This document shows positions 3,434-48,591 of a stretch of 64,000 nt of DNA, in pieces. The position numbers and the translations under genes are program-made. Under the pieces are notes generated by a model. It saw only the letters and a program-made list of their open reading frames with translations, had not been told where the DNA came from and ran no database searches. The DNA is from Cladochytrium replicatum (lineage: Eukaryota; Chytridiomycota; Chytridiomycetes; Cladochytriales; Cladochytriaceae), in the NCBI GenBank assembly GCA_025526935.1, contig JAHLKD010000083.1, forward strand, positions 62,001-126,000, written 5' to 3'. How positions within the stretch are numbered: the stretch's first letter is position 1; each line of letters opens with the position of its first letter.

Positions 3434-6400
3434 ATGGCACTCCAACCCCCACGAATCCAACGGCTGGAAGAGTCCGTCGTGAACCGCATTGCTGCCGGCG
3501 AAGTACGTGCCATATTTGTCTCTGGTTAAAATTTCCTTTGCTTATCCATGACGAAAGATCATTCAGAGACCAGCCAACGCCCTGAAAGAGTTGCTCGAAA
3601 ACAGCCTCGATGCGGAGTCCACTTCAATCACAATCCTCGTTCGAGATGGTGGGCTAAAACTCCTCCAGATTCAAGACAATGGAACCGGAATCCGAAAAGC
3701 CGATCTCGACATCGTATGCGAACGTTTCACCACTTCAAAACTCAGAAAATTTGAGGATCTGCAGACCATCGCGACGTTTGGGTTCCGCGGAGAAGCGCTC
3801 GCCAGTATTTCTCACGTAGCGCACTTGACGATCACGACAAAGACTAGGGATGAGGTTTGCGCGTGGAGGTTGGAATTGTTGTTCCGTGAAATAGGAGAAA
3901 ACTGACTTCTTGGAAACCGTTGGAAGGGCATCATACAGAGACGGCAAGTTAATTGCACCACGCCCAGGCCAATCTGCAGAGCCAAAAGCGTGTGCAGGCA
4001 ATAACGGGACCCAGATTACGGTAGAAGATCTGTTCTTCAACGTTCCAACACGGCGAAACGCGCTCAAAAACACCAGTGATGAATACGGACGCATCCTCGA
4101 TGTGGTATCCAGATACTCGATTCACAACAGCGGTGTCAGCTTTACTTGCAAAAAGGTTTGTGCGTGACATGATCGCTGTTGCAGAATGATTTCATTAGCA
4201 TCCCTTCCCGAAGCAAGGAGCAACAAACGCAGACCTCCACACTCAGCCCAACGGCTCCATCATCGACAACATCCGAACTATCTACGGACCATCCATAGCC
4301 AAAGAGTTGCTGCAGTTAGAGATGGAGTATGAGAGGCTATGTTTCACTGCAAAAGGATACATTACGCACGCAAACTACCACACCAAAAAAACCCAGTTCC
4401 TTTTATTCATCAACAGTAGGGGCTCGGAGATAACAGTTCCATTCAAGTCGATTCACCTCTCATTCCCAGATCGGCTAGTCGACTGCTCGCCATTGAAAAG
4501 AGGAATCGAAGGGGTCTACCAAGCCTATCTTCCTCGCAGCACCTACCCTTTCGTGTATCTCGCCTTGCAGATCAAACCCGAGCACGTGGACGTGAACGTG
4601 CACCCGACCAAAAAAGAAGTGAACTTTCTCGACCAGGAAGAGGTCATCGCGTGCGTGTGTGATGCGATCCAGGAGCGATTGGCGAATGCGAATGCATCGA
4701 GGACTTTTCTCACACAGGTTTGTTAAAATGCGCGGAAAGAAATGGTGGTCATTATCTGACATAAACCTTCCAAAGACTCTGCTACCCGGAGCTTTGCCGG
4801 TTCTTGATATACGCCCAACTGAGAGTGGTCAGTCACAAAAAGGTTTGAATATCATTCAGAGATAATTTTTAACATTGCTGATTGAAATCATTCAGTTGGA
4901 AAGGCTCGTGAACCTGATCACAAGCTTGTTCGAACGGACAGCCGCACACGGACGCTTCATGCTTTCTTCCCGCCCCCAGCAAACAAGCTTGACTCACCTA
5001 GAATAGCCGTGGATGGCACAGTGGCACGTACTGAATCGCGAGGAGAGGAAGTTGAGCATGACATCGATGAACGTGCTGAGACAAACAAACCACACCTTAT
5101 TGTCCCGGCAAAGCGAAAAGTGGATGATCAAGCGGCAGTCGGAGGTCAGAACACACTAGAAAGAGCTCAAGCCAATCCGATGACTGAGAACGATGGGCAA
5201 CAACGGATTGGACGGGCTGCGTTAACCGGTGTTTCTATGCCGCAGAGAGTGGGAATACGCGATTGGAGTAGACAAAAACAAGTGTTAGACACAAACGCAG
5301 AAGAAGAACAGCATCATGATGACGACGACGAGGCGAAACGGAAAAAGAGGAGGGGGAAGCTTCCTGTGTATCACAATGAAGCAGCGGTGCAGGCTGACGA
5401 TGACGATGCTGGATTGGAGGATGATGGAGATGTGGAGATGGTTTTTGTAGATGAAACGGAAAACGAGGCACCAGCGGCGCTAAAGGGAGTAAAGCCACCA
5501 AGGGCCTATGTGGAGGTTCGGTTGACAAGCGTGCTTGAACTGAGGGATAAAGTTGTGAAGGACGAGAATCGAGGTAATTGGATCTCGCTGCGTTAGTAAT
5601 ACTAAAAGTGGTGATCAGGCATATCAGACATTCTGCGCGAGTATGTTTTTGTCGGGTGCATCGACGATGTTCTTGCGCTTGTTCAGTACAAGACCAAGCT
5701 CTTCATGGTCGACTATCGAGAGATGAGGTTTGTGAATCCACAAAAAGGAATAACACAATTTCTTTGATTTGACCAGGTGAAATTAGTTGTGAGCTGTTTT
5801 ACCAACTGGGGCTCAAAGGATTTGCCAACTTTGGCTTCATCCGCCTGTCACCACCACATTCCATCTTCGACCTCACCATGATTGCCCTGAACGATCCAGA
5901 CGAAGACGCCATGGTGCTTGAAGATGGTCTACCAAATCAAGAATCAATTCGGTGGGGTCCAGACGGGACAATTACCCCCAAAGCAGAGATTGCTCAGGTA
6001 AGAACCATGCAACTAGTTTTCGATATTTGTATCAACATGATGATATCAAAGATGGTTGTGGATCTCTTGGTCGATCGTCGTGAAATGCTCCTTGAATACT
6101 TTTCGATAACAGTGACTCCCAGCGGCGAACTAGCATCCCTGCCAATCCTCCTAGCGAGCTACACTCCCAACTTTGGCAAACTCCCACTGTTCCTCTTGCG
6201 TGTAGCCAGCGATGTGACGTGGGACACCGAAAAGGAGTGTTTTGATACTTTTATACGCAACCTTGCCACGTTCTACGCCTTCCAAGCAACGCCTTTGCCT
6301 CCAGATTCGGTACGGATTGAACCAGAACAAACGACGGGGATCGTGTTGAAGACAACTGCCGGTAATGTGGAAGTGAGCCGTCGGGTTGATGACGATGATC

Positions 6401-22134: not shown

Positions 22135-24064
22135 TTAGGCAGATTTAGATGGGTTGTAGTCCAAATAGTTCTCGCTTTCTGCTGCTTCGTATTCGTTGAT
22201 CAAGTCTTGAACCACTTCCCTGTTCCAAGAATTCAGCAAATCCGAAACATATACTATCTTTATAAAAATTTCTCACCTGGAAATATCAAACTCCTCCAGT
22301 CCATCCGCGAAAATGGTCTCCCTCTTGTACTGCTCCAGAAAAGCATTTCGCTTCCTTAGACGATCGAACTGGTCGCAAGTACGTTTGAACATCTTTTGGA
22401 TTCAGTGTCAATAATGCAATTTTTTCAAAGAGAAGAAGAAGAGGAGTTACCGTAGAAATGCTTGTATGGTTTGCAAGCATGAGCCCAGAAACTTTGTGGC
22501 CAGCCTGAATGTATGGACTCTTTTTTGAAAGTGCAACCTGAATACTTGCAGGACCCCATGGAATGAATTGTGCGAGTCTCCTTTCACGTATTCTCATGAG
22601 CGACTTGTGAACCTACGCGAACGTTGAATGACCTCTTACAAAACTCGCATCAAAGTCATACCTCGGTGGGATCCACATCTCCTTGAATGATGTTGAGGAT
22701 CGAGATGTAGCAGCTGTTCTTCGACACCGTCGTTGAAACCATCTTATTCTTGGCCTGCAGCAATCGCCGCATAACATCGAGGACAGTTGTTTTGCGAACA
22801 CCTTTTGCCTGATCATTGTGTTAATCATCGCTTGCTTTTGGTATATCAAAATTCCTTCAAAGTGTCTTACGGATTCAACTTGATCGCTGCTGAAAGGTGT
22901 GTAGCTGGTTGTCAGATAGTGGCATCTAGGGGTAGGGATCAGCGAGGCAACCAGTCCAACAAGATCATTGTTCATGTAGCCGGGGTATCGAAGTGTAGTT
23001 GTGCTGGCACTCATCACTGTCGAAACCTGTTCAAATATTCAACAGAACAATCTTCATTGAGATAATACCATACCAATTGATTTGTCTGCGCAAAAGTTGG
23101 ATTTGAGATGTGCAGCCTGTCGGCAGCTATCCGATTCAGCGCAGCGTTATCAAGTACTACCTGGATATTTTCTGAATTTTCGGGAGGAAATGAAAGTGTC
23201 GGTCAACTTACCACTGAGTCGGCACACGTTGTAAGCCGCTTCAGCGTGAGCATAGAGTTATACGGCTGCACAACAACGTCGCTGGTTTCCTCGCTGTTTG
23301 GAAACACAGAGTATGTCTGAATAAGCTTCTTTGGGTACCGATCGTTCAATGTTTCGAGCAAGTAAGATCCCAATCCAGATCCCGTTCCACCAGCAATAGA
23401 GTGCAAGAGCATGAATCCCTAAGAAGCAGAGAACCACCATGTCAGCAAGACATAGAAGCGAAGCGGTCAAACCGAACCTCCAAACTGTCACTTCCGTCTG
23501 CTTCTCTATCAATCATCTCAATGATCTCTTCATGCACTTTCTCGCCTTGGGAATATCCGTACGCCCAGTTGTTTCCAGCACCACCTCCATCCTGAGACAT
23601 GAACACATTTTCTGGGTTGAACAAGTTCGCATAAGGGGAGGCCATGATATTGTTTATAACCTGGGAGTATCGATTAAAAACGACAAATTTTGAGGAAATA
23701 TAAAAATAATCAATCTTGACACGCTCGCTTACTCTTGGCTCCAGATCCAGCAAGATCGATCGAGGAATGTAGTGTTCATCGTCTGCCTATCAGAAACGTG
23801 TTTCAGCAAAGTTGGGATTCGATAGATGGCTTTGGAGGTACTTGATAGAAGAAAACGTCTTTTCTGTCCCCGGTCTCGGTTGCAAAGTCTTCCAAAATTC
23901 CATCAGGCCGGATCCCATGTTCAGCGCACAGTTGTTGCCAAAACACCTGACCAACTGAAACAAATGGTGGTAGCAGTTAGAATCTGTGACATATGTAGTG
24001 CCCGCTCAGACCTACTCTGGTTCCCGCACTGGCCGACTTGCAGGGTGATGAGCTCTCGAGGCAT
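22135..24064 (-). CDS. Gamma-tubulin, 11 exons
   Basis: Exons 24016-24064, 23842-23954, 23733-23786, 23478-23660, 23212-23418, 23074-23160, 22871-23026, 22662-22808, 22451-22612, 22277-22392 and 22135-22219 join in phase to 452 residues, the family length. The start [18 protein letters not shown] is diagnostic, with the GTP-binding glycine loop as [10 protein letters not shown]. The gamma-specific stretches [43 protein letters not shown] and [18 protein letters not shown] are all present. It nucleates microtubules at the spindle pole body or, in zoosporic fungi, the basal body. All ten introns are 46-73 nt. It is divergent from WDR59 with only 42 bp between the two start codons. Confidence 0.97.
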
Positions 24065-32947: not shown

Positions 32948-34692
32948 TCAGAGTTCATTACATGCATGCTCAGCGGTTAGTTTAATTATACTTGAAAGCT
33001 CTTCAATATTCATACCAATTGCTTGCTTGTCAGCAGTCTGTACAAGTAACAAAATAGAACCAAGGGGTTTGCACGGAGCAAACCCATTGAAGTCCACTAG
33101 CTGCGCTGCGAACACAAAATTCAAGGAGCAAGGCAGAGTTAAGTGGCAACATTCAAGCATCGCTTTTTCAGCATCGCCAGCTCGAAACATCCGCCCGTGG
33201 GGTGCATTCGACAACATCTGGTCAATCATTTCGCCGATCAAGCGTGGCAAGTTTGTGAGCCGCGAGATAGTTACTGGATCACCGGGACCTCCCGACCAGC
33301 AATGCTCATGGCCAATCCAGAGCCAGGGAATGAGCCATAAACAATCTTTCCGTCCCAAGCGGTTTTTGCTTACCGCTTCATCAAACAGTCTCGCCTCTCC
33401 CTCGAGATAAAACGAATCTGCCGTGCCTACGTACACGCGAATCTTGCCTCTAAGCAATTTGCTCAGTTTCTTCCAGTCCCTCACAATGTTATGCGATAGA
33501 TCCCAGTGTTCGCGCCAGTATTCGGCTACCGTGCGGTTAATCTCCCCGGTCTCTTTGTTCCAGATCGGTTCAGGATACCCGTTGCTTCCGACTGGCGCGT
33601 ACACTGCTAGCCAGATGTCGTATTGTTCCCCGGATCGAGACTTGTGGTCGCCTGTCGCGAGTTCGAGCCAGTTGGCTTCTAACTGGGTTGCGAAAGGTCA
33701 CCGTATGAGTTTCGCTCGGCGGGGATGGGAGTCTTGCGCCAGGAGCTCTTGTAGTAGTTGCGTTGTCTTGGTTGTGGATGTCGATGTTTATGTAGCGGCC
33801 GGAGTCGATTGGGTCGGGGCAAGACGCCCAGCATCCATTGTACTCATCTGGGTTAGAAAATCTGAGGAATAAAGTGAGCGACATTGAAAAGAAACTGGCA
33901 ACTTTGATGAGGTTTACCTGGACGGCAAGAGATTCTTAAACGAAAGAAAAGAGCAACAGGATAAAGCTATAAAACACATTGAATAATCAATTTGCGCTCT
34001 TTACTCACCCCAACCGCCAAGCGAACCACCGAATATGACACGAGCCGATGACTCGCCGATTCCCCTGAAAGTGGAATCCACGTGCGGAACAAGCTCATAA
34101 GTAATCGCGTCCCCGTATGGCCCGACATTCAGAGAGTTTGTTGCGTAGTTGTCGTCATACAATGGGTTTGCGTGCTGGACAGTCATGACGATGGCTCAAT
34201 TGTTGTAGACGGGCTGTCGGGAATTCGAGATGTCCAGTTCTTGTAGAGGTAGTAGCTATACAGTTGTTCTGGGTAGGCGTAGTCCTCTGCCGTTTCATCG
34301 GGAGAGTGTTTCACGGAATGCGGCCGGGATCAAGAACGTGGAAGTGAAGTAGCCGTGATACAAGACAAGCGGATAGCGCGTTGGCATTTTCGGGCTCTTT
34401 CGACCCATCCTTGGAGATAAGAAGAAGAACACGGCCGTCAAGCTTCTCGCCTTTAACTCCAGAAGATTTCTCTGGGCCAATGTCAATCTTTACGTTGAAA
34501 GTTGCGCCGCGGTGGGGCCACAACAGGTCTGCGGAAGATAACCGTTTGACCATAATCATCTTGATATAGCACGATTGCATTGAGATCAGGTGCAGATAGA
34601 GAGCGAGAGCTCTCCTGCCTGAATGCTGGAAATCCCAACAGCGGCAGATAAACCACCAGGATGAACGGCAGTGCCGTTGCTGCAAGACCCAC
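32948..34692 (-). pseudogene. Decayed secreted esterase (alpha/beta hydrolase, PF00756-like)
   Basis: Segments of one esterase appear in order but in different frames. The N-terminus has a signal-like TALPFILVVYLPLLG and DGRVLLLISKDGSKEP. A middle reads RYPLVLYHGYF, then YAYPEQLYSYYLYKNWTS. Next come VQHANPLYDDNYATNS, GPYGDAITYELVP and FGGSLGGW with the nucleophile Ser. Then YNGCWASCPDPID, YDIWLAVYAPVGSNGYPEP and EYWREHWDLSH, with HEHCW near the end. About 150 residues between KEP and RYP are missing. Several joins need a 1-nt indel: near 33858 TTCTAACCC reads correctly if one A is removed, and near 33690 TTTCGC reads correctly if one T is removed. No coherent splice model repairs all breaks. 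The parent would be a secreted ester hydrolase. Confidence 0.72.
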
Positions 34693-34763
34693 GCGATCGT
34701 CGTCGTGGGAGAGTGTGGTGCTAAAAAAATAGTGGCTTTGACATCTGGATATCTCAAAGCCAC

Positions 34764-35246
34764 TGAAGGGAATTGAAAAGAGTCAAGTATTTCTTGTGTT
34801 GTTTTGCATCGGTTTTATTCAAGAAAATTGCTGGTGAAACATATCTATTTTCTTGTTCATGATTTTATGACTAATTCTCCTTGTAATTCGCTGTGAACGG
34901 TGATTCGTGATCCTTTGTTGTTTTGGTCGATATCGTCGCTTGGAGCACCAATCCATTAACCTCACCCACAAACAGTTAATGCAAAAGATCGAAGATCGCG
35001 AATTCACGAATCCTTAGTGTTCGAGAGCATTGGATCGACACAGGTGAGTTGAGGCTGTCTATTTAAACCAACGCCTTTGATCCCCCTGATTCCTGAACAT
35101 CATCTTATTGTTCCAATTTGAATCAGACAGCATCTACCCATTTCGTTGAACCAAGAGCACCAGAGCGGACCTCCTGTACTCTGCCTCCACAGTTATACGT
35201 CTCTTCTCCATTTCAACCTACCTCACATCACACGCACATATTCACG
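34764..35246. other. Intergenic stretch, 5' side of the MGCGGSK gene
   Basis: No gene was recognised. The right half (about 35060-35246), with pyrimidine-rich sequence, is likely promoter and 5' untranslated region of the gene starting at 35247. Confidence 0.4.
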
Positions 35247-36371
35247 ATGGGTTGTGGAGGATCTAAAGGCATGGTCGCTGTTGCACCAGAGTCTATCACC
35301 CAGCAGAACACCGTCGCAGTCGTCCATACCAAGAAATCCAACCCTGCCCGAGTTAATCCTGTCACATCAGATCCTCCCACAGAATCCTATCCGCCGCCTC
35401 TTGGTAAGACTGGTGATCTCTTTCGTACGTAAACAAGGATTGATTTATTGGTGAATTAGGCTCAGCCCTGTCAAAGCCAGTGGTTCCCTCTATTGTCCCA
35501 GCTGCTTCGGTGTCTGATCCTGGTCGAAACAACAAGGACGAAGGTAGTGCTTACTTGTAGTATCTTACAAGACACTCATATAGTAATCAGAAGCTGTTCG
35601 AAAACCGGTGGCATTTGAGATCCCATTGGATGACAATGTTTTCGAAAAGTCGCCCACAAGGAATATAGGTGGAGCACCTTCTGCGAGTGGAAATGCACAA
35701 AACAAGGTTTCTCTGCCTAAGCTGAATCTCACGGCGCAGGACTTGCAAGCAAAGCTCGCCAACACAGAAGCGCGATGGAAGGTAATCAAATTTTTACTAA
35801 CACTTCATTGTAAAGCTTAGCATTGACTCAAATATAGGAAATGGATAGCCAGCAGGAAGCTCGCCGCAGCTCAAGGGCCAAGTCTAGACCTCCACAGCTT
35901 ACATCCTCGACCAGGCAGCGCAAGCCAACGGGAGACGATCCCATCACTCTTAAACAGCGCATGCTAGAGAAAGAGCAGCAAGTCGCACAGAACCGCATTC
36001 GAGAGATGGAGAAGCTCCAGGCAAAGCTTGCTCGACAGGAGGTTCACGCCCGCCAAGTGCAAGAACGCAAACGCAACCTTGGCCGACTTTCGAACGAAGA
36101 TCTCAATGTATCCTGGGGCGGCGAGATGGGACTTTCGGATGCACTTAAAGGAGCTGGAGCGGTGATTCCTGCTGTAGCTAAAAGCGCGGATTCCGGAAAG
36201 GGCTCGTCTTCGGTTAGCTTGTCGCTTGGAAGCAGGAGTGGTAGTGGAAGGTCCAACGGGACGGCTGTTGACGTCGGCTCTGAGGATGGCGATGCTGCTC
36301 AGACAAAGGAGAAGTCAAAGCTTGCGAACGAATCGACACCACTTGTTCAGCCATCCCTTGGTTTGGCTTAG
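35247..36371 (+). CDS. N-myristoylated/palmitoylated coiled-coil protein of unknown function, 4 exons
   Basis: Exons 35247-35403, 35460-35543, 35591-35781 and 35838-36371 join in phase to 321 residues. The N-terminus MGCGGSKG is a textbook N-myristoylation site with an adjacent Cys for palmitoylation, so the protein should sit on the inner face of a membrane. A Pro/Ser/Val-rich stretch follows, then a long charged helix-forming region (about residues 115-230: LTAQDLQAKLANTEARWKEM, EKEQQVAQNRIREMEKLQAK) that looks like a coiled coil. The tail is Ser/Gly-rich. No family was recognised; the helical part is faintly stathmin-like but this is not a safe call. Exon phases and codon character make the gene real. 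Confidence 0.8.
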
Positions 36372-37350
36372 AAAAGGATCGAAAAGCGTGGAACGCTGTT
36401 TTTGTCCCGCCTTTTTACTTCCGCTCATGGTCTCCTTATCTGTTCTTTCCCACAATTACGTACCCCTTTAACTGCCCCATGATTCTCGCAAAGGGATTTT
36501 TTTGTATAGACAAATGTACACTTTGTTTCGGACATCTTGACTTTGTTGATACCCGGTTTCATTTACACTGCGATCATGTTTCATGTTGTTTTCCCAAAGT
36601 CTGTTTTCTCTTTGTCTTTCTGGCTCTAAAATCGCCGTCCCTTGCGTCATAGTGTTGCCAGTCAAGGCACCTCAGGGCGGTCTCTTGCTAGGTACGCACA
36701 TTTGTTTTGATATCGACTTGATCCAAGGTTGATGTTATTGTTGTGTTAGTGGGTGTCGTAATCCTTGAAAATATAGAATTCATAAAAGAAAAACGAAAAA
36801 ACAAGAAAAGATACCAACAAAGAAGTGTAAGAATAATATCTGTTGAAATCTTCATCATCACAATGCCCATTCCAGTTGCTCTCCTGCGGAAAGGGAATGC
36901 TAGAAACCCTTAACAATTACAAGCGGAATGAGACAAGCTGATGCACGTTCCGCCAGCGGTGCCAGTGAACATACACGTCTCTCCAGTCACCAACGAGGGA
37001 GCTCTGTTCATAGTAATCTGTGTGCTCTAGTTTCGAGTTCTGAGGCAGGAAAGCGACGGCCACGATGGTATGATCTTTGTATACGGATGGATCTGCAATC
37101 GATAATCGCTTCATGGCGCTGCCGTCGGTGATATCGATGAAGGCAGACGAGCGCATGTCCGGTGCCTCCGTCGTGGCATCTGCCTGGTAGAGGCGTGGCC
37201 AAAAAGGACCGCTTGAAGAAGAAGTAGACGCCGTTCTTGCATTCATGGATGAAGCGATCAAACATCGAAAACTCGAATTGAATGATCCTGATAAGCATTG
37301 ATCTGGTTTCTCATTGGGTTGACCCAGATCTTTTGAGGACTATATTTTTG
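36372..37350. other. Intergenic stretch with one unassigned open frame
   Basis: Mostly AT-rich. On the minus strand 36917-37261 an open frame ends DYYEQSSLVGDWRDVYVHWHRW-type sequence rich in Trp/His/Tyr, and a second frame just upstream reads FDRFIHECKNGVYFFFKRSF. These could be exons or relics of one gene, but no start, splice pair or family could be fixed. Nothing else was recognised. Confidence 0.35.
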
Positions 37351-37359
37351 TTTTGGGGT

Positions 37360-38425
37360 ACATGAAACGTGAGAGGAGAGGACTCTTTAGCGACAGACGA
37401 AAGTTACTTGCATCCAGGGCTCGAAGGTATGTCATTTGATTTGGAAGGTTTGGAGTCTAATTCCACATTTTTCCACCTCTTTTTCCCAGAATTTCAGTAA
37501 CGTGCTTAAACTCGGGCAAGAGTTCTTCGGACCTAAGGGCACAATTAAATACAGCAGCGTATGAACCACAGCCGTTAAAAGCGGCAGCCCAGACTTCACG
37601 TAAGATGCGGTTGTCGTGTTTTCATTCTTTCCTTACTGTATTTCTTTCAGATTCCAAACCAGGTGGAACAACGAAGTCCGATCCTAGGCACCAACAGCAC
37701 TCTGCTGCTGCTCCCAGGCAATATCCGACCGCTTAAAACTGCAGTCGCGTAACAAACCTCCAAGTGGAGAGGAAGTAAAGACGCCAATCATCATCGTTCC
37801 AACCTCTCCACTTCAATGCTCAATCTGTAACGTGAAGGAGTTCTTGGGAAGCTCGTGCGTCCTAATTTGGTTTCGTGATACATTCTGAATTATGCCGAAT
37901 TGTGATTAATCAAGACCCATATTCGTTGTGTCCGACGAGCAGACCGCGAAAGGAATGTCGAAGCCAGGTTCGGTCTTTATAACTCGCTCTTCTGTCAATC
38001 GTCCGGGACTTCCTGAGAGCTTCCTTGTGATTGATGCACCGGAACGATTCACCCAAGATCAGTGATATACCGATCAATCACCATAGCACTTATCAAAAAT
38101 CTGTAGGAGTGTTTGCCATTAGCCAAGATAGGCAGTTTAAGAATTGGAAGCTTGGTGCGGAAAGACCAGATAATATACTTCGAGCAGGTAAGTAAATGTT
38201 TCGGTTTCGAGAAGATGTTCTGAAGTTTGCATTGCAGTGCGCGGCATCTGCTTGAAGTATAATGATGATCAGCTTCAGGACGGACTGAAAAGTTGGAATC
38301 TTCATCCACATGTTGTGAATACACTGGCTGGTGAAGGATGTTATCCAACTGACGGATTGTACAGATCGATCGAAACCGAAGTCATCGAGATTCCTAGGCG
38401 GAGATGGACTTTTGGAAGATTGTAG
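37360..38425 (+). pseudogene. CDC73/parafibromin-like relic (C-terminal half)
   Basis: Pieces in order on the plus strand resemble Cdc73 of the Paf1 transcription-elongation complex. They are a basic stretch followed after a short intron (about 37424-37490) by NFSNVLKLGQEFF; EEVKTPIIIVPTSPL (about 37769-37813), like the PIIIIP motif; FVVSDEQTAKGMSKPG with ESFLVIDAPERF (about 37920-38056); and RQFKNWKLGAE joined by a phase-consistent intron (38187-38236) to RGICLKYNDDQLQ, like the QFKGW...FHLKYD region. The N-terminal half is absent, the first and second pieces are in frames closed by stops, and the junction near 38060-38105 does not keep phase. Either the model is badly broken or this is a truncated relic, the second being more likely. 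The identity rests on recalled motifs only. Confidence 0.5.
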
Positions 38426-38520
38426 ATTATCATATATCCAACAATCCGAAGCTTATGAATGCATAATCAAAATAGCTCATTGATTGTAAATTGATTCTCT
38501 ATGGTCCATGTTTATGGAGA

Positions 38521-40132
38521 TCATGGCGGGATCAAATTAGTTTCTGCACTTTTTTCTTGCACAAGCTCAACCATATCGTCCAATCTGTAAGTGTTCGTTA
38601 GTTAGCTAATGCGTCAGCCCAAAAACGCATACATCTTCTGTTGACGCTGGTAGAGAGCAAAGCTATGTTCCAGTGATGTGAGAAGCATGAAATAGTTCGC
38701 CATAAGCTCCTTCATTCTGACAGTAAAATTCTATCAACAAACAGAAAATTTTAAAATGCAACAACAGTACCTAGTTGGTAAAGTGGGTGAGTAGTAGTTG
38801 TCGATGCCGGATGATTCCTCGAATAGCTCTCCAAATTCCAATGCCGTTTCTTCCCTATCTTCCTCGTCCACAGCTAGCTTTGTATCATTCGCCATTAGTT
38901 GCTCGTCCAAAAGCAACATCGCTTCCTCTTTCTGCAATGATTAGAAAACGAGAATGAGATTTGATGGCATGAACAAGGCTTAACCATACAGACCTTCAGC
39001 TTCTTCTTTTTCTTCTTCCTACCTCGTTCAGCGTTCGCCTGAGTAATTTGCAAGTTGTTCACAATGACAGCTACAAACAGGCTGACGTCCTTTTTCATTA
39101 GAAGCAAGTCTCGAGAAGTTCAGTCAAATTTACTTCAATAACATGAATCCTTGTATGATGATGAAGGTGACGGCATATGCCCAGATCTCCGGCGCGACAA
39201 GGCGGTTGTCGTGGTAAATGTAGCTCCAGTTGTCAAAGGTCATGACTGCAAATATGTAAAAGAAACTAGATCCGAGGCTTCCGAATCGGAAAGGGTCGAT
39301 AGTTCTGAAGGTCACTGTGCCGATAACGGCATATATATCTGCAGAGAAATCATCAGCTCAAGGATGGTGAACAGATCTCGATGCGTACACATAACGAGGA
39401 CCATCAATATCAAGATGTTCCCCATTGCAAGCACCGATTTCAACAATGTGGTAACTATGATCTGTAAGCTCTTCAAGAAACTGATGGTCCGCAGGGCTCG
39501 GAGCGAACGAAGGGCTTTCACAGTTCTGAGAATACGCAGCAGACGGAATACTTTTGTGTTTATCGTGATCACGAATGTGAGCACGACAGGGGCGATCCAG
39601 GTGACCAGACTCGTGAGCACGATGAAGAAGTCAAAGCAGTTCCAACCGATGCGAAAGTATTGTAATCTCCAGCAATAAAGCTTGAACGTACATTCGAACA
39701 AGTAGATTCCCAAAAACACAGAATCCAAAGCCGAAAAGTACCAACCTGAACAAGGATACAGCAGAATTTTAACATCGCAGAAATCTATTATAATATACAC
39801 ATCTCACCATAAAGTTTGTTCAATGAAGTAACAGTTTGTAGTGCCATCACCACCGTATTGATGATAATGATTAGAAGCATGCCGTTATTGAAAATTTGAG
39901 ATTGACAGAATTCGAGTGCGGTCTTTCTGAAGAAGCCCGATGAGCGAAGCTGCTTAATCAACTTCTTTGCAAGACGTGTCTCATCGTCAACATCACGCTT
40001 TGAGCTCGATGTCGCCCCCGAATGCGCAGAGGACGCCGCTGATAAGCCAGAGACATAGGAGACTGCGGATACTACCGAGTCTCCTGCGCTGCTGGCAGCA
40101 GCGGAGGACACAACGGAGCTTCGAACACTCAT
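38521..40132 (-). CDS. CatSper-like single-domain six-helix voltage-gated cation channel, 7 exons
   Basis: Exons 39808-40132, 39389-39745, 39134-39338, 38994-39081, 38771-38931, 38633-38716 and 38521-38584 join in phase to 427 residues. After a ~95-residue Ser/Ala-rich cytosolic start come S1 (MLLIIIINTVVMALQTV), S2 and S3. S4 (VFRLLRILRTVKALRSLRAL) has Arg or Lys at every third position as voltage sensor. S5 is MGNILILMVLVMYIYAVIG. The pore loop holds MTFDNW, matching the T-x-D-x-W selectivity motif typical of CatSper channels. S6 ends LLNLFVAVIVNNLQ. The C-terminus is a short acidic/coiled-coil region (EEAMLLLDEQL, KELMANYFMLLTSLEH). A single repeat of this size fits CatSper1-4 subunits, which form a tetrameric Ca2+ channel of sperm flagella; in a zoosporic fungus it may serve the zoospore flagellum. 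It is not a four-repeat Cav/Nav channel. It is divergent from DNA polymerase epsilon. Confidence 0.85.
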
Positions 40133-40240
40133 TATTGTTTACTTCCAGATCAGGAAGGAACGCGACTGCAAGCCACGGTTTGAACTGGAGGGTCCTTAAT
40201 TTACCGAAAGAGGAAGGAATCTGCACCACTCGACACTCCA
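40133..40240. promoter_or_regulatory. 108-bp divergent promoter between the CatSper-like gene and POLE
   Basis: The two start codons (40132 minus, 40241 plus) are 108 bp apart, so a cell-type-specific channel gene and a replication gene share one very short control region. No TATA box or obvious cell-cycle box was seen. Confidence 0.65.
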
Positions 40241-43200
40241 ATGTCATACCAGCAGAAATGGAGAGGGAATGGGCGAGGTCAAGGGTGGAGGAATCGAAAC
40301 GACCCAAATCGGAACGGAGGCGGGGGAGTAGCACAGGGGAAATCAGGGCGAAATGGCTCGTCCTTCTTTTCGAGAAGTTTCTTTGCCGATCCGGATGCAG
40401 CATTCGATGACGTTGCCGGCATCGACCCAAATTTCGAAGACCCAAACTCGGCCGACGTTGGTTTTGGTCCCATTCTTGCGGGAAAGGATGCGGAAATGGA
40501 CCCTTCGCTTAAGGGAGCGTACACGAGCGAGGAAAGGCTAGAGGAGCTCCGAGCATCGAATGCTTTGGACGAAATTATGGGATTCAGCAGAATTGAGGAG
40601 AAGGAAGGGAAGCTTGGGTGGCTCGTGAATATGCAGCCGGTATGTCAATGTCACCCAACAGAAATCTTTGTCTAATAAAATTATCCAGTCATTGGTGATC
40701 GATAATATTGATGGTGTTGGACGTGCGGCAATCGATTTCTATTTCATTGAAGAAGATGGCCAAACTTTCAAGGCAACGGCCTTGTACGATCCATATTTTT
40801 ATGTCGTTTGCAAGGTCCGCATCACTTTCCTCGTCAATAATAACCGATTTACATTGACCTATTATTAGCCCGGGACAGAAAGTGATGTCGAGGACTATAT
40901 TCGTCGGAGATGGGAGAAAGTTGTCAAATCAACCAACAAGGTGTATAAGGATGACCTAAAACTGGTAGAAAACTTGGACGATGATTCGACGAAATCAAAC
41001 TTACTTTAATTCTCAAAGCCAAACCATCTCGTTGGACACAAAAGAGTCATACTGAAGATAACTACCCCAAATGTAGCGAATCTCTTGGCCATTCGAAAGG
41101 TTCTTCTGCCCGCAGCGGGACGTAACAAAGCGAAGAGAAAAGCAACGGAAGCATATGAAGACGGTGCCATTGAGTATGCCAATGTCAGTTCTTCTTCAAT
41201 CGGGGTCGCTTATCCGCTTTAGGTTCTTGGATGATCGAAACAGCGATGATGAACAACCCGGTGACGATGTTGGAGGTGCCGGAACGGATTTTGGATTTGG
41301 GATCGCGGCCGTGGATGGGGAAAATCATTTCAAGCATTCCTCTCGGTCTGGTATTGGCGCAACGAACGCCGGAACCAAAGGAGCAGCACACAAAGATCCA
41401 CTGGACTTTATTATGGACCTTCGTGAATATGATGTACCGTACTATGTTCGAGCTGCAATCGACAATGGTATGCATTGCTTTCCATCAAATGGGTCCTATG
41501 CTCAACCCATCTTAGATTTCCGAGTTGGATATTGGTATAATGTCAGATGCGGAGGAGGGACTGTTACTCTTGAGAGAAGAGATGACAAGGTTAAGCGTGC
41601 CGAACCCGTCGTCTTCGCATTTGATATCGAAACCACAAAACTTCCGCTCAAATTCCCCGACCCCGAAGTTGATAATATCATGATGATTTCATACATGATT
41701 GATGGGCAGGTAACTGATTCAATGTCGAGCTCCAACGGTGCAATCTAAATGTCTCATGTTAGGGGTTTCTTATCACAAACAGAGAAATTGTGTCTGAAGA
41801 CATCGAAGACTTTGAATACACACCAAAACCTGAATACGAAGGTTGCTTTACAATATCCAATGAACCGAATGAGGTATTTATTCATAATGAGCCCAATTGG
41901 AACCATTAATGAAATTATTTGTCGTCAGAGTTCACTGCTCAGAAGATTCTTCGATCACATCCGTGAAGTGAAGCCAAAGGTTTATGTCTCTTACAACGGA
42001 GACTTTTTCGATTGGCCGTTCATCGAAAAGCGAGCATTAGCCAACGGCTATGATATGAAAAAGGTGTGCAAAATGTCATAAACATCATATCAGACTGAAA
42101 AAGTATGTAGGAAATCGGTGTGTCGAGGGATTCAAACAATGTGTACTCTTCCCTTTATGGTGCACATCTTGATTGCTTTTACTGGGTGAAGCGTGACAGT
42201 TACCTACCTCAAGGAAGTCAAGGTCTGAAGGTTTGAGCACGATGCACAATGTGTTGCACATGCTTCCAAAACTAACCTTCCTCTTATCCAGGCAGTCACG
42301 ACAAATAAGCTCGGTTACAATCCTATGGAGCTGGACCCAGAAGACATGACAAAGTGAGTGAAGTACGGTATTGCAGAAAATAGTAGTAAACCGTTTTGCC
42401 TAGGTTTGCATCCGAAAGACCACAGACCCTAGCCCAGTATTCAGTCTCAGATGCTGTTGCTACATACTACCTTTACATGAAATATGTGAACCCGTTCATC
42501 TTTTCGCTTTGCAATATCATCCCGATGAATCCTGATGAAGTTTTACGGAGAGGGTCCGGAACACTCTGTGAAACGCTTCTCATGGTGATGCAATCGCTTC
42601 CAACATTCGATACCGTAACTGACAACCGACTGTTCTATTCTAGGTGCAAGCTTACAAGGCCAATGTCATTATGCCCAACAAACATGTTGATGAAGCTGGC
42701 AAGACGTTCGACGGGCACCTCCTCGAGAGTGAGACATACGTTGGAGGGCATGTGGAAGCACTTGAAGCTGGAGTATTCAGAAATGATTTGCCTGTTAACT
42801 TCAAGCTTGCTCCAGAGGGACTGCAAACAGTAAGTAGTGATACTGAAATTCTTGGAATCTATATTTACACTTGTTGTAGCTAATTGACGAAGTGGATAGT
42901 GCACTCCACTTCTCAATTGTCAACGAAGCCCAGCTTTCCATTAATGACGTGACGAATTACGAGGAGGTATATTCAACCCTCTGAATCGCTCTACCAGGAA
43001 TCTCAACCATTTTGTAGGTAAAATCTCAGATCATTTCTGCCCTCACGAAGCTGCGGGACCAGCCGAATCGGTCAGAAGAGCCCCTGATTTACCATTTGGA
43101 CGTGGCAGCAATGTATCCGAATATTATTCTTACAAATCGATTACAACCTGACGCAATGGTCGACGAAAGTTTCTGCGCAGCTTGTGACTTCAACGATGGT

Positions 43201-46200
43201 CCCGGTACTTTATGCCAAAGGCGCATGCAGTGGTCTTGGCGCGGAGAATACTACCCCGCAAAACGAAGCGAGTACAATATGATTCGCAACCAGTTAGAGA
43301 CAGAGAGGTTTCCTGGAGACTCACCAGACTCCCCAGTACGCACTTTCCACGAATTGCGAAAAGCAGAGCAGCACGCAATTTTGAAGAAGCGCATTTCAGA
43401 TTACAGCAAAAAGGTTTACAAAAAGATGTACGAAAACAAAGTTGTATCTCGAGAGTCGATAGTGTGTCAACGAGAGAATCCTTTTTACGTCGATACTGTG
43501 CGAAATTTCAGAGATCGGCGGTATGAATACAAAGGTCTGCTAAAGACCTGGAAGAAGAAGCATGATGATGCGAAGAAGCACGGAAATCTCAAGGACATTG
43601 AAGAGGCAGATAAGCTTATCGTTGTGTACGACTCCCTGCAGCTTGCCCACAAGTGCATCTTGAACTCATTCTACGGCTACGTGATGAGGAAAGGCGCAAG
43701 ATGGTTCTCAATGGAAATGGCGGGCATTGTTTGTTTGACTGGAGCGAAAATCATTCAACTTGCCCGCTCGCGAGTCGATCAGATAGGCCGTCCTTTGGAG
43801 CTCGACACTGATGGTATCTGGTGCATCCTTCCAAAAACTTTTCCGGAAAACTTCACCTTCAATATGGCAAATGGAAAGACGCTTCAGATTTCGTACCCTT
43901 GTGTAATGCTCAACCATCTTGTCCACGACAAGTTTACAAATCATCAGTATCATGACTTGGAGCAAAAGGACAAATTTACTTATTCTGTGCGTTCTGAAAA
44001 CTCAATTTTCTTTGAAGTTGATGGGCCGTACCGAGCTATGATTTTGCCATCTTCAACTGAAGAAGACAAGTTATTGAAGAAACGATATGCGGTGTTCAAC
44101 GACAATGGTTCATTGGCTGAATTGAAAGGATTCGAGGTCAAACGGCGTGGTGAGCTAAAGCTTATCAAGATTTTTCAGAAAGAAATTTTTGGAGTCTTCT
44201 TGAATGGCACGACATTGCAAGAGTGCTACGAGGCAGTGGCAGCAGTTGCAAACAAGTGGCTCGACATATTGTGGAGCAAGGGGGCGGATTTGAGCGATGA
44301 GGAACTGTTTGAGCTAATTTCCGAGAATCGGAGCATGTCGAAGAGTCTTGAAGAATACGGAGGGCAAAAATCAACCTCTATCAGCACTGCAAAGCGATTA
44401 GCTGAATTTTTGGGAGATCAGATGGTGAAAGACAAGGGCTTGACATGTCGATATGTAATTTCGGCCAAACCCAAAGACACACCAGTCAGCGAAAGAGCGA
44501 TCCCTGTTGCTATCTTCTCTGCTGAACCGCAGGTTCGTCGGCATTTTCTTCGGAAATGGCTGAAAGACTCTGGGAGCTCAAGGGGATCCGGTGGTTCCGA
44601 GTCTAACGGGGGGGACGAGTGGGACATTCGTCAGATATTGGATTGGCAGTACTACCTGGATCGGTTTTCTTCCGTCATCCGTAAGATCATTACAATTCCA
44701 GCGGCGATGCAAAAGATCATAAATCCTGTTCCTCGAGTCCCGCATCCTGACTGGCTTTCGCGGAGGCTTGCCATCCTCAACGACAAAAATCGGCAAAACA
44801 CGCTTGTTGACATGTTCCAGAGGATGCGCGAGAAAGAGGCTCGAGAGGAACTGGATCAGGATGCGCTTATTGAGGCTGCTGAAGAGGATGTAGAAAGCGA
44901 CCTATTGGGACGAAGCGCTATGGAGATCGAAAATACGCCCATCCATAAAGGAGTAGACATTGAAGATGCAATATCAGATCCGTCAAGTAATGGTCACGGC
45001 TTGAAAGGAAAGATGGTGGCAACGGTTCACAAACACGTCCGGTCGGGCAAAAGTGTTTTGGCTTCAAGGAATCGCCAGCAAGTTGTGCCTGACGTCATGA
45101 ACGGAGAAGTTTGCCCTCCTATCACTGGTCCGTACAGGGATTGGTTGGCATTCCAGAAAAGAAAGTGGCAGCGTCAAAGAGACTTTCTGTACCGCAAACA
45201 GCAAGAGGAGCTTGATGACACCTCCGATGATTTGCCAAGGAAGCGTCTCCGCATTGCACCCGGCTCCGCATTGCCAGGAGGTGGGGGTATGGTGGATTTT
45301 TTGCGGCGCCAAACGAACCAAATAATGACGAGTGACTGGCATATCGTTCAAATAACCGAAACCGACATCCCAGGCGAGTTTCGGGTTTGGGCGATGGTTC
45401 GCGATCAGCTACATGCACTGAAAATGTCAGTTCCACGGATATTTTACGTGAATAGTAGGGTACCGAACCCCGCGGGATCTGCTGCAGCAGCAGGTGGTAT
45501 CAAGATCTCCCGTTGCACCAAAGTGCTTCCGAGATCACACCCTTGTCTCAACTTGTACGAGTTTCGAATGGGGGAAGACATTTACCGAAAGAACATTAAC
45601 GTATTTTCGACCTTCTTCAACGATCCGGGGATTGAAGGTGTATATGAAACTCAAGTTCCTCTACTCTTTCGAGCTATGATGCAGCTCAGCTGTATTGCGA
45701 GAGTAGGACAGGAGCGGCGAAAAATACAATCTGGATCAATAGGCCCTGATAGATACGATCTGTATGATCTCCAGCCTGAGACGAATGGCGCGACGTATCT
45801 TAATCCAGACGTTAGTGGGCGGACGATCTCAGTATTGCAACACATATACATCTATCACGCATGCTCAGAGAACAACGCACATCAGATAATTGGCATTTTC
45901 TTCACTGCTCTTGGGAAGGGAAGTGCATTTTTTGTCGATCGTCGTCGAAGGAAGGATCAAATACCTTCTGCGACCCGAATATATGCCGAAACTGAGACTG
46001 CAGTGGTTCAAGCCAAAGGCCTGGACAAAATTTCGGAGCTTACACCGACGCAACATTCGTGGTCACAAGTCGGCGTATCTCAGGCGGAGACTGTGGGATC
46101 ACAGAAGGGCGATGATGAAGGTCGTAGCATCGCAGACTTTCAGTATCCGAGCTGTATGGTGTTCGAAACGCTGGTCCATGGAACAGAGCAGGAAGCTTTG

Positions 46201-48591
46201 GGAGCGGTCAATCAGGCACTAAGAGAGTATCAAGATCAGAGAAGAGGCCCAACAATGCTCATCATTCAATCGCCTCGCACTCCGCGCATGTTGGCCGCTG
46301 CTGCACCAAGTATATTGGACTTCCCAAACTTGACCATTCCGTCGTTGAAGCAAGATCGCCAATTTCCAGCACTGGGTTGGCAATTACCGCAATGCCGCGC
46401 CATGATGTCGCACTACTTTGAGCTCTCCGCTTGGTTGGCAGATCACATCGCCCTTGCAAGATACGCAAGTTTGCCACTATGTAACCTTGAGCACGACTAT
46501 CTTGTGTTCATGGGTGATTTGCTAGTTGCAAGGCGACTTACAAAGCAGGATATGATACTCTGGTACTCCACATCGGGGAAACCAGATTTAGGGGGCAGAG
46601 AGGAAGACGACTATGCCTCAACATCATCGTTGCTCACACGGGGCGACGTTCTATCCGCGTCGAATCCAGAGATCAACCATTCTGGCGCTTACTACAATGT
46701 GTGTATTGAGATGGATTTACGAGATCTTGCACATAATGCTGTTCTTCAATCCCATCTTGTCAACAACTTGGAGGAAACAGGTGAGAGTTCAGGATTTTCT
46801 GGCTCAGGAGCAACATACGAAACCCAGAAAGCGACGGAGAAGCAGCCTGAGAGATCTCAAAAGCAATCGACCACGGAGATTGCGACTGAGCCAACCGCTT
46901 CATTTGCCGTAGTGGAAGCGGGCGAGAATGAAATAACCCAAAAAACTTTCAGGGTGATAAAGGACTTGGTGAAATCATGGGTCGCAGAGGCACGCCTCTC
47001 CCGCAGCCGATTCGCTCTGATGCTGCTTGGTCACTTGCAACGATGGTTGACGACTTCGACATCGAAATTCTTTGATCCTGCATTCAACGTTTTGCTAAAC
47101 ACCATGATGAGCAAGGTGCTGTTGCAGCTGCTTGCGGAGTTTAGGCGACTTGGTTCAATGGTAGTCCATGCCAGCTTAAACAAAGTTATTCTTGTGACAA
47201 CGAAAGTTTCGACTGCAACAGCACAGAAATACGCTACTTGGGTTCTCGATGCGGTTCGAAAAAAGCCTCTCTTTCAGTACATAGACTTGCAGCCAAGAAC
47301 TTTCTACGAAGCTCTGCTGTGGATGGATCAGTACAACATGGCGGGACTTGCATGGAGTGACCAGACGGAGCAAGAAAACCCCAAATCTACATCAGAAGCT
47401 GACGATGAGGAGGGCGATGAAGGAGGTGCTGCCAAACAGCGAACGTCAAAGAGAAGAAGGATCTTGGATGATGATGAAGAGAGTCCTGATCATGAACATC
47501 AGCCGATGCAAGCTGACCAAGGGTCCAATCCACAACCAAAGCTTGTGCTCACGATGCATTGGAACATCATGGAATACCTTCCGCCACGAGTTCAACCCTA
47601 CTTCGTTGAAGTGCTGCAGATGTACATGAAAACATTACACGAAAGCCGCATCAGCGTGCTTTCGGGTATAGCGATTGATATTGATACAGGAGAGGACGAT
47701 GGTCCAGCGGAAGGCCTGGAGGCAACAAACGGAATGACAACCACTGGTCGCGGAAGCAAGTTAATCGGGCTTCTCCAGCGGCACGTTGAAACGACGGTCA
47801 AACGACGAGTCTTGCAGATTGTGGATGGCTTGAACTCTATTCGGGCGTCCCAGGCATCAGCAAACACAGACCCAGACTTTGAATTCCCGAAACCAGCAGG
47901 ATCGCATCTAGACTTGACGTTATCAAAAGCCAGTCCCCCTTTAGAGTTCGCGAAGATGATTTGTACAGTTTTATCCCTCGACCGGCGTCTTCTCGACAAA
48001 GTCAACTCGCTGAAGCGTGATATTTTCAACCTGGTCAACGGAGCAACAAGAAGAAAAGCCGGAATCGCAGCGAGCGAGTTTAGCGCTGCGGCCAAATTTG
48101 TAAACCCTTGCGAACCACTCAAGATCCCACTTGTGATCTGCGAGTATTGTCACTTTGTCAGGGAGATGGATCTCACGCGTGACCCAGATCTGAATCGAAA
48201 TCCGAACGCTGGCGATGACGAAGACGGCGCGTCGGCCGAAATACCGTGGGAGTGCAGTGAATGTGGACAGGAGTACGACAAGACGCAATTTGAGCAGAAG
48301 CTCATACAGATGGTATATCAACTGCTTGCGGCATGGCAACTGCAGGATACGCAGTGTCGGGCATGTAGGCAGGTGAGGGCGGAGAGGATGGCGATAAATT
48401 GCCGAATGTGCACCAAGGGAGGCGGATCCGGGTCGCAAGGGGGTTTCGAGCACGTTGGAATGATCAACCGGTCGGGCGGAGGGACGGGGGCAGAAGATGT
48501 GATGAGACGGATTAGGGTGATGCGTAACGTCGCTGAAATCCACAAGATGGAAATGCTGAAGGATGTGGTGGACTGGGTCCTTTCTAGGTGA
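40241..48591 (+). CDS. DNA polymerase epsilon catalytic subunit, 14 exons
   Basis: Exons 40241-40639, 40689-40814, 40869-40964, 41019-41173, 41223-41467, 41516-41709, 41763-41873, 41929-42063, 42111-42230, 42292-42353, 42404-42584, 42644-42829, 42880-42966 and 43018-48591 join in phase to 2556 residues. The proofreading exonuclease has FAFDIETTK (Exo I, about residue 375) and [13 protein letters not shown] (Exo II). The family-B polymerase has [14 protein letters not shown], motif [10 protein letters not shown] (about 725), [14 protein letters not shown] (motif B), and motif C ELDTDGIW (about 960). The inactive second exo-pol half and two C-terminal zinc modules (CEYC...CSEC; CRAC...CRMC, about 2410-2500) complete it. 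It synthesises the leading strand in the nuclear replisome. It is about 300 residues longer than human or yeast enzymes, mostly in N-terminal and internal linkers. Thirteen introns lie in the first 2.8 kb and none in the last 5.57 kb. Confidence 0.97.

Follow-up and report, generated by a model that had tools for sequence, protein, structure and literature searches.

The window, i.e. the whole stretch of 64,000 nucleotides of Cladochytrium replicatum DNA (contig C83) that was analysed, carries a seven-exon gene on the minus strand at 38521-40132. The six introns (48-62 nt) all follow the GT..AG rule, and their removal leaves an open frame for a protein of 427 amino acids, which reproduced the exon number and the exact length proposed in the first-pass annotation. 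The features of this gene, a predicted CatSper1, and of the adjoining gap are as follows.

39808-40132, minus strand: predicted CatSper1 exon 1, with the start codon at 40132-40130, encoding a Ser/Ala-rich N-terminus and S1
39389-39745, minus strand: predicted CatSper1 exon 2, encoding S2 to S5; wrongly cut by the ab initio finder
39134-39338, minus strand: predicted CatSper1 exon 3, encoding the end of S5, the pore loop, and S6
38994-39081, minus strand: predicted CatSper1 exon 4, encoding the end of S6 (NLFVAVIVNN) and then a lysine-rich stretch
38771-38931, minus strand: predicted CatSper1 exon 5, encoding an acidic C-terminal linker
38633-38716, minus strand: predicted CatSper1 exon 6, encoding the C-terminal helix KELMANYFMLLTSLEHSFALYQRQQ
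38521-38584, minus strand: predicted CatSper1 exon 7 and the stop codon
39489-39554, minus strand: codons of S4 (residues 173-194), with K or R at each third residue, eight running
39226-39240, minus strand: codons of the pore motif T-F-D-N-W (residues 261-265)
40133-40240, no strand: gap of 108 bp separating the CatSper1 start codon from where the DNA polymerase epsilon gene, transcribed divergently, is predicted to start

The first version of the ab initio finder predicted no genes, and a second version was trained with long open reading frames from the same genome. The start, stop, and splice sites of this second version agreed with the CatSper1 model except for exon 2, where one spurious intron and a differing donor site were introduced; with a looser gene penalty, the gene was divided into two. 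The predicted exon 2 rests on homology, with an Ion_trans score of 68 bits for that exon. Pfam analysis of the 427-aa protein placed a single Ion_trans repeat at residues 79-312 (E 9.3e-40). In a six-frame scan of the genome, exon 2 was the sole Ion_trans place on C83 among 19 places on 15 contigs, a lower bound as short exons can escape such a scan. The one stretch in the protein and the lack of a second on C83 bore out the single-repeat channel described earlier.

The S4 segment has eight consecutive basic residues at every third position, starting from K173, and none of 20000 shuffled versions of the protein reached this run length, which confirms the regular S4 noted before. The pore motif at residues 261-265 likewise proved to be a T-x-D-x-W filter as read at first, and S6 does end in NLFVAVIVNN, a segment spanning the junction of exons 3 and 4.

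On the other side of the 108-bp gap, the gene for the catalytic subunit of DNA polymerase epsilon runs divergently (window 40241-48591, plus strand); its identity was taken from the ORF 41077-41745, which matched this subunit with 96.9 bits. A promoter common to the two genes is possible. A predicted protein at window 22135-24064 on the minus strand has a gamma-tubulin-like start.

The whole 427-aa protein was compared with all PDB chains, and the best 60 of 162 matches (lowest score, 95.6 bits) were considered. The best match in one stretch among these 60 was CatSper1 (7eeb_A, 146.4 bits, query residues 71-417); the next CatSper1 chain was 9ubw_A with 137.2 bits, and no CatSper2, CatSper3, or CatSper4 chain was present among the 60. 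One-domain Nav chains of the NaChBac and NavMs type scored about 96 to 112.4 bits in the same set. Four-repeat Cav chains reached up to 191 bits as whole chains, exceeding CatSper1 because their repeats are summed, whereas the best single Cav repeat scored 64.6 bits among the five four-repeat chains with per-repeat scores. By this full-length comparison the window gene is a predicted CatSper1, and the CatSper identity originally suggested is supported. When the last 169 residues (pore, S6, and tail) were used alone, CatSper1 scored 31.1 bits at rank 21, outranked by several Cav chains and by some one-domain bacterial chains named 'Ion transport protein' (up to 35.9 bits); by these scores CatSper1 cannot be singled out from pore and tail alone. 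The last 61 amino acids, comprising the C-terminal helix, matched no CatSper chain of the PDB. These results with the last 169 and the last 61 residues indicate that most of the signal comes from the voltage-sensor half.

Subsequently, the rest of the genome was searched for other subunits, as had been proposed with the first-pass annotation, in which a lone subunit was taken to imply three further partners or a homotetramer. Regions from 12 further Ion_trans contigs, besides those of CatSper1, 3, and 4, were aligned with a spliced aligner. A gene on C101 with the pore sequence TAEGW matched CatSper3 structures (164.6 and 142.7 bits), and a minus-strand gene on C27 (TQDGW) matched CatSper4 (124.5 and 121.2 bits; 104.4 bits for a one-domain bacterial chain), per-repeat scores being taken for the first two chains only with these two genes. 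A gene on C65 (TFDQW) matched CatSper2 with whole-chain scores of 144.5 and 142.6 bits, against 81.7 bits for CatSper4 and 63.4 bits for CatSper3. These three genes are draft models with unsettled ends. Since the top matches differ among the fungal pore genes, each picks a separate animal subunit. Four different pore subunits, matching CatSper1-4 one to one, are thus predicted to be encoded in one genome. The other three genes share 27, 27, and 30% identity with the CatSper1 of the window, and 26 columns are invariant among all four.

Accessory subunits were detected as well. CatSper-beta was located on C131 by profile search (CATSPERB_C, 1.6e-25); in its 1174-aa draft, the second and head domains of CATSPERB precede CATSPERB_C, both under the curated cut-offs, and two CatSper-beta chains scored 65 bits against this draft, the other four of the six structure matches being 12.7 bits or less. 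Downstream of the beta draft and outside the model, the DNA encodes a hydrophobic stretch and then a stop. CatSper-gamma was found on C32 (CATSPERG_C, 1.6e-16; Ig-like domain, 3e-4, under the cut-off), and the top structure matches of its draft were CatSper-gamma chains (67.8 and 66.8 bits). CatSper-epsilon on C1 consisted of two ab initio pieces (CATSPERE_NTD2, 2.7e-8; CATSPERD-E_C, 1.4e-11), and theta/TMEM249 on C52 was recognised by two TMEM249 matches (5.9e-11 and 1.7e-4). The models of beta, gamma, epsilon, and theta are drafts, from which at least these four accessory families are predicted to be present. The presence of CatSper2-4 and of four accessory genes elsewhere in the assembly shows the earlier one-subunit inference to be wrong: four pore and at least four accessory subunits take the place of the lone subunit or homotetramer. 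The propeller profiles of CATSPERG (PF15064) and of CATSPERD, i.e. delta (PF15020), had no match in the genome and none in any control genome either, so that absence is not proven, whereas the OATP profile PF03137 (the family of SLCO6C1) had no match in the genome and was positive in 9 of 14 controls. As stated in the part of PMC10055175 consulted, TMEM249 co-evolves with CatSper genes and is needed for assembly in the mouse, where it supports CatSper4. The portion of the literature covered here contains no mention of TMEM249 in a fungus, which is no proof of its being unreported.

The pore filters of the four genes are TFDNW in CatSper1, TFDQW in CatSper2, TAEGW in CatSper3, and TQDGW in CatSper4; D is present in three of the four, and the filter ring across CatSper1-4 is D-D-E-D. 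The T-A-E-G-W filter, in which E replaces the D of CatSper, straddles a splice junction on C101 (region L021, about 5170-5250). Asp is described as absolutely conserved in the filters of animal CatSpers in the section of PMC2572835 at hand, whereas the corresponding section of a review (PMC10120453) gives glutamate for CatSper2/3/4; owing to this conflict, the extent to which the Glu of CatSper3 is a departure is unsure. By analogy with Cav rings, the D-D-E-D ring should still bind Ca2+.

The runs of S4 charges in the four pore genes amount to 8, 4, 5, and 6, that of CatSper1 being 8. Because regular charges are kept in all four segments, the sequences suggest a real and clear voltage dependence. 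Only 1 histidine was found among the first 75 residues of the window CatSper1, which makes a pH sensor in a histidine tail unlikely. When the C-termini were compared, the three pairs among CatSper1, 2, and 4 beat their shuffles (6, 2, and 1 of 1000 as good), whereas the pairs with CatSper3 were not beyond chance (484, 573, and 236 of 1000 as good).

Two further voltage-sensor genes with R-x-W-R motifs in S4 were observed on C1 (region L036, minus strand) and C19 (region L033, plus strand). The former matched 3wkv ('Ion channel'; 47.7 bits), which we take to be an Hv1 chimera, as well as T-type Cav (46.0 and 44.2 bits) and Hv1 (39.8 bits); the latter had a Pfam Ion_trans match only. Both are tentatively regarded as candidate Hv1 proton channels. 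Separately, C58:24469-28730 holds two weak Bac_rhodopsin matches (26-27 bits), one on each strand and about 4 kb from each other.

A motile flagellum is predicted from a Radial_spoke gene on C49 (2.9e-47; weaker matches on C108 and C17), in support of the flagellated stage postulated at the outset. Lys2-type aminoadipate reductase marks fungi. Ordered pieces of such a reductase on C55 covered profile positions 1-1388 of 1390; no piece alone exceeded the curated cut-off, and the model also had matches, all under the cut-off, in 12 of 14 prokaryote controls. This reductase fits a fungus and supports the fungal origin of the genome. We consider contamination with animal DNA unlikely: the short introns of CatSper1 resemble those of the polymerase-epsilon neighbour, the CatSper genes are spread over eight contigs of at least 114 kb each, and the scores against animal chains are modest.

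Duplicated blocks bear on whether the genes still work. The window interval 34393-38877 is repeated as an inverted block on C91 (region L024, 4806-9448) with 71-79% DNA identity in pieces, and all that is left of CatSper1 there is a remnant of its last exons interrupted by stop codons. The gamma region on C32 (L046) likewise has a second duplicated block on C56 (L045; 71-80% identity in pieces), in which the gamma copy appeared as ab initio fragments only. A second CatSper1 and a second gamma seem to have been lost from these blocks. The broken CatSper1 duplicate, the gamma duplicate judged broken from its ab initio fragments, and the E in the CatSper3 pore would suit true CatSper genes that no longer form a working flagellar channel, for example as relics or through reuse in the thallus. 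We regard this as unlikely, as the window copy is open through seven exons with its S4, pore, and S6 motifs intact, and as a set of interacting subunits has been kept, which would be unexpected for a useless complex.

The window gene might instead encode a eukaryotic one-domain channel resembling NaChBac or the EukCats, homotetrameric and with no CatSper function; bacterial one-domain Nav channels are homotetramers. One-domain Nav chains did score up to 112.4 bits with the whole protein, and the last 169 residues gave 35.9 bits to a one-domain bacterial chain against 31.1 bits for CatSper1. Nevertheless, CatSper1 leads by 34 bits over the whole protein, and the genome also holds CatSper2-4 together with accessory subunits. 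The filter residue here is Asp, whereas bacterial Nav filters are mostly glutamate, with two exceptions among the channels listed in the part of PMC2572835 examined. EukCats, in the excerpt of PMC10120453 used, are described as confined to stramenopiles, cryptophytes, haptophytes, and alveolates. Taken together, these points make a NaChBac- or EukCat-like channel highly improbable. The reading as a broken-off repeat or piece of a four-repeat Cav, NALCN, or Cch1 gene, which the highest, summed Cav chain scores might suggest, has next to no probability given the 64.6 bits of the best single Cav repeat (five chains) against 146.4 bits for CatSper1, the gene's own start, stop, and C-terminal tail, the polymerase-epsilon gene diverging 108 bp upstream, and the finding of no further Ion_trans place on C83. 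An origin in NaChBac-like channels or in a Cav fragment had been named at first as the case against a CatSper; the full-length scores spoke against both, and the part that stood is that the last 169 residues slightly favour one-domain bacterial chains.

The window gene is very probably the CatSper1 of a flagellated (zoosporic) fungus, belonging to a flagellar CatSper1-4 Ca2+ channel with an accessory canopy. The results here comprise the predicted genes and, by score, the families to which they belong; assembly, location, Ca2+ selectivity, and role are inferred from animal CatSper. The CatSper1 product would most likely join those of CatSper2, CatSper3, and CatSper4 in a 1:1:1:1 tetramer, above which CatSper-beta, gamma, and epsilon would form an extracellular canopy, with TMEM249/theta placed beside CatSper4. 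The complex would reside in the flagellar membrane of the zoospore (or gamete), where depolarisation, perhaps helped by internal alkalinisation, would open the channel to Ca2+; the entry of Ca2+ would then alter the flagellar waveform and hence the swimming path. We further propose, as a tentative idea that may well not hold, that this is a nearly whole animal-type CatSper, theta/TMEM249 included, in an ancestral form driven mainly by voltage, with charges in all four sensors, the D-D-E-D ring, no histidine-rich tail, and possibly alkalinisation through Hv1. If true, an ancestral-form CatSper would offer a non-animal system for learning how CatSper worked before sperm, and a zoosporic fungus would provide a free-swimming cell for testing an early flagellum-steering role and the order of subunit addition. 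As of 2017, heterologous function of CatSper had not been achieved according to the passages of PMC5362262 consulted.

The window protein shares with the CatSper1 of animal sperm (7eeb, 9ubw) the single repeat, the charged S4, the T-x-D-x-W filter, and a match over residues 71-417. It differs in its Ser/Ala-rich head, the lysine-rich stretch after S6, and its 1 N-terminal histidine, whereas mammalian CatSper1 has a histidine-rich N-terminus. Compared with bacterial Nav channels (NaChBac, NavMs), the one-repeat plan is the same, but the window protein scores lower to them than to CatSper1. At the level of the complex, the fungal genome differs from animals in that the delta propeller and OATP were not found in it, and in having the D-D-E-D filter ring and S4 runs of 8, 4, 5, and 6 charges; mammalian CatSper3/4 have few S4 charges. 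The animal complex comprises CatSper1-4, beta, gamma, delta, epsilon, theta, zeta, and EFCAB9, and of these the fungal genome shares the families of CatSper1-4, beta, gamma, epsilon, and theta.

CATSPER1 and CATSPER2 have been placed among the orthogroups specific to flagellated fungi in the sections seen of PMC13358043 (Sci Rep 2026), which also count four Ion_trans orthogroups among 107 non-minimal ones and state that the CatSper complex is not universally kept. Fungal CatSper subunits being already in print, the present finding is a rather complete further case and not the first. In PMC5362262 (eLife 2017), the portion of which at hand describes searches of genomes including Allomyces, Thecamonas, and Aurantiochytrium, CatSper1-4, beta, gamma, and epsilon are regarded as ancient, delta as later, and zeta as restricted to mammals; this ancient set of CatSper1-4, beta, gamma, and epsilon, as given there, equals the set found here.
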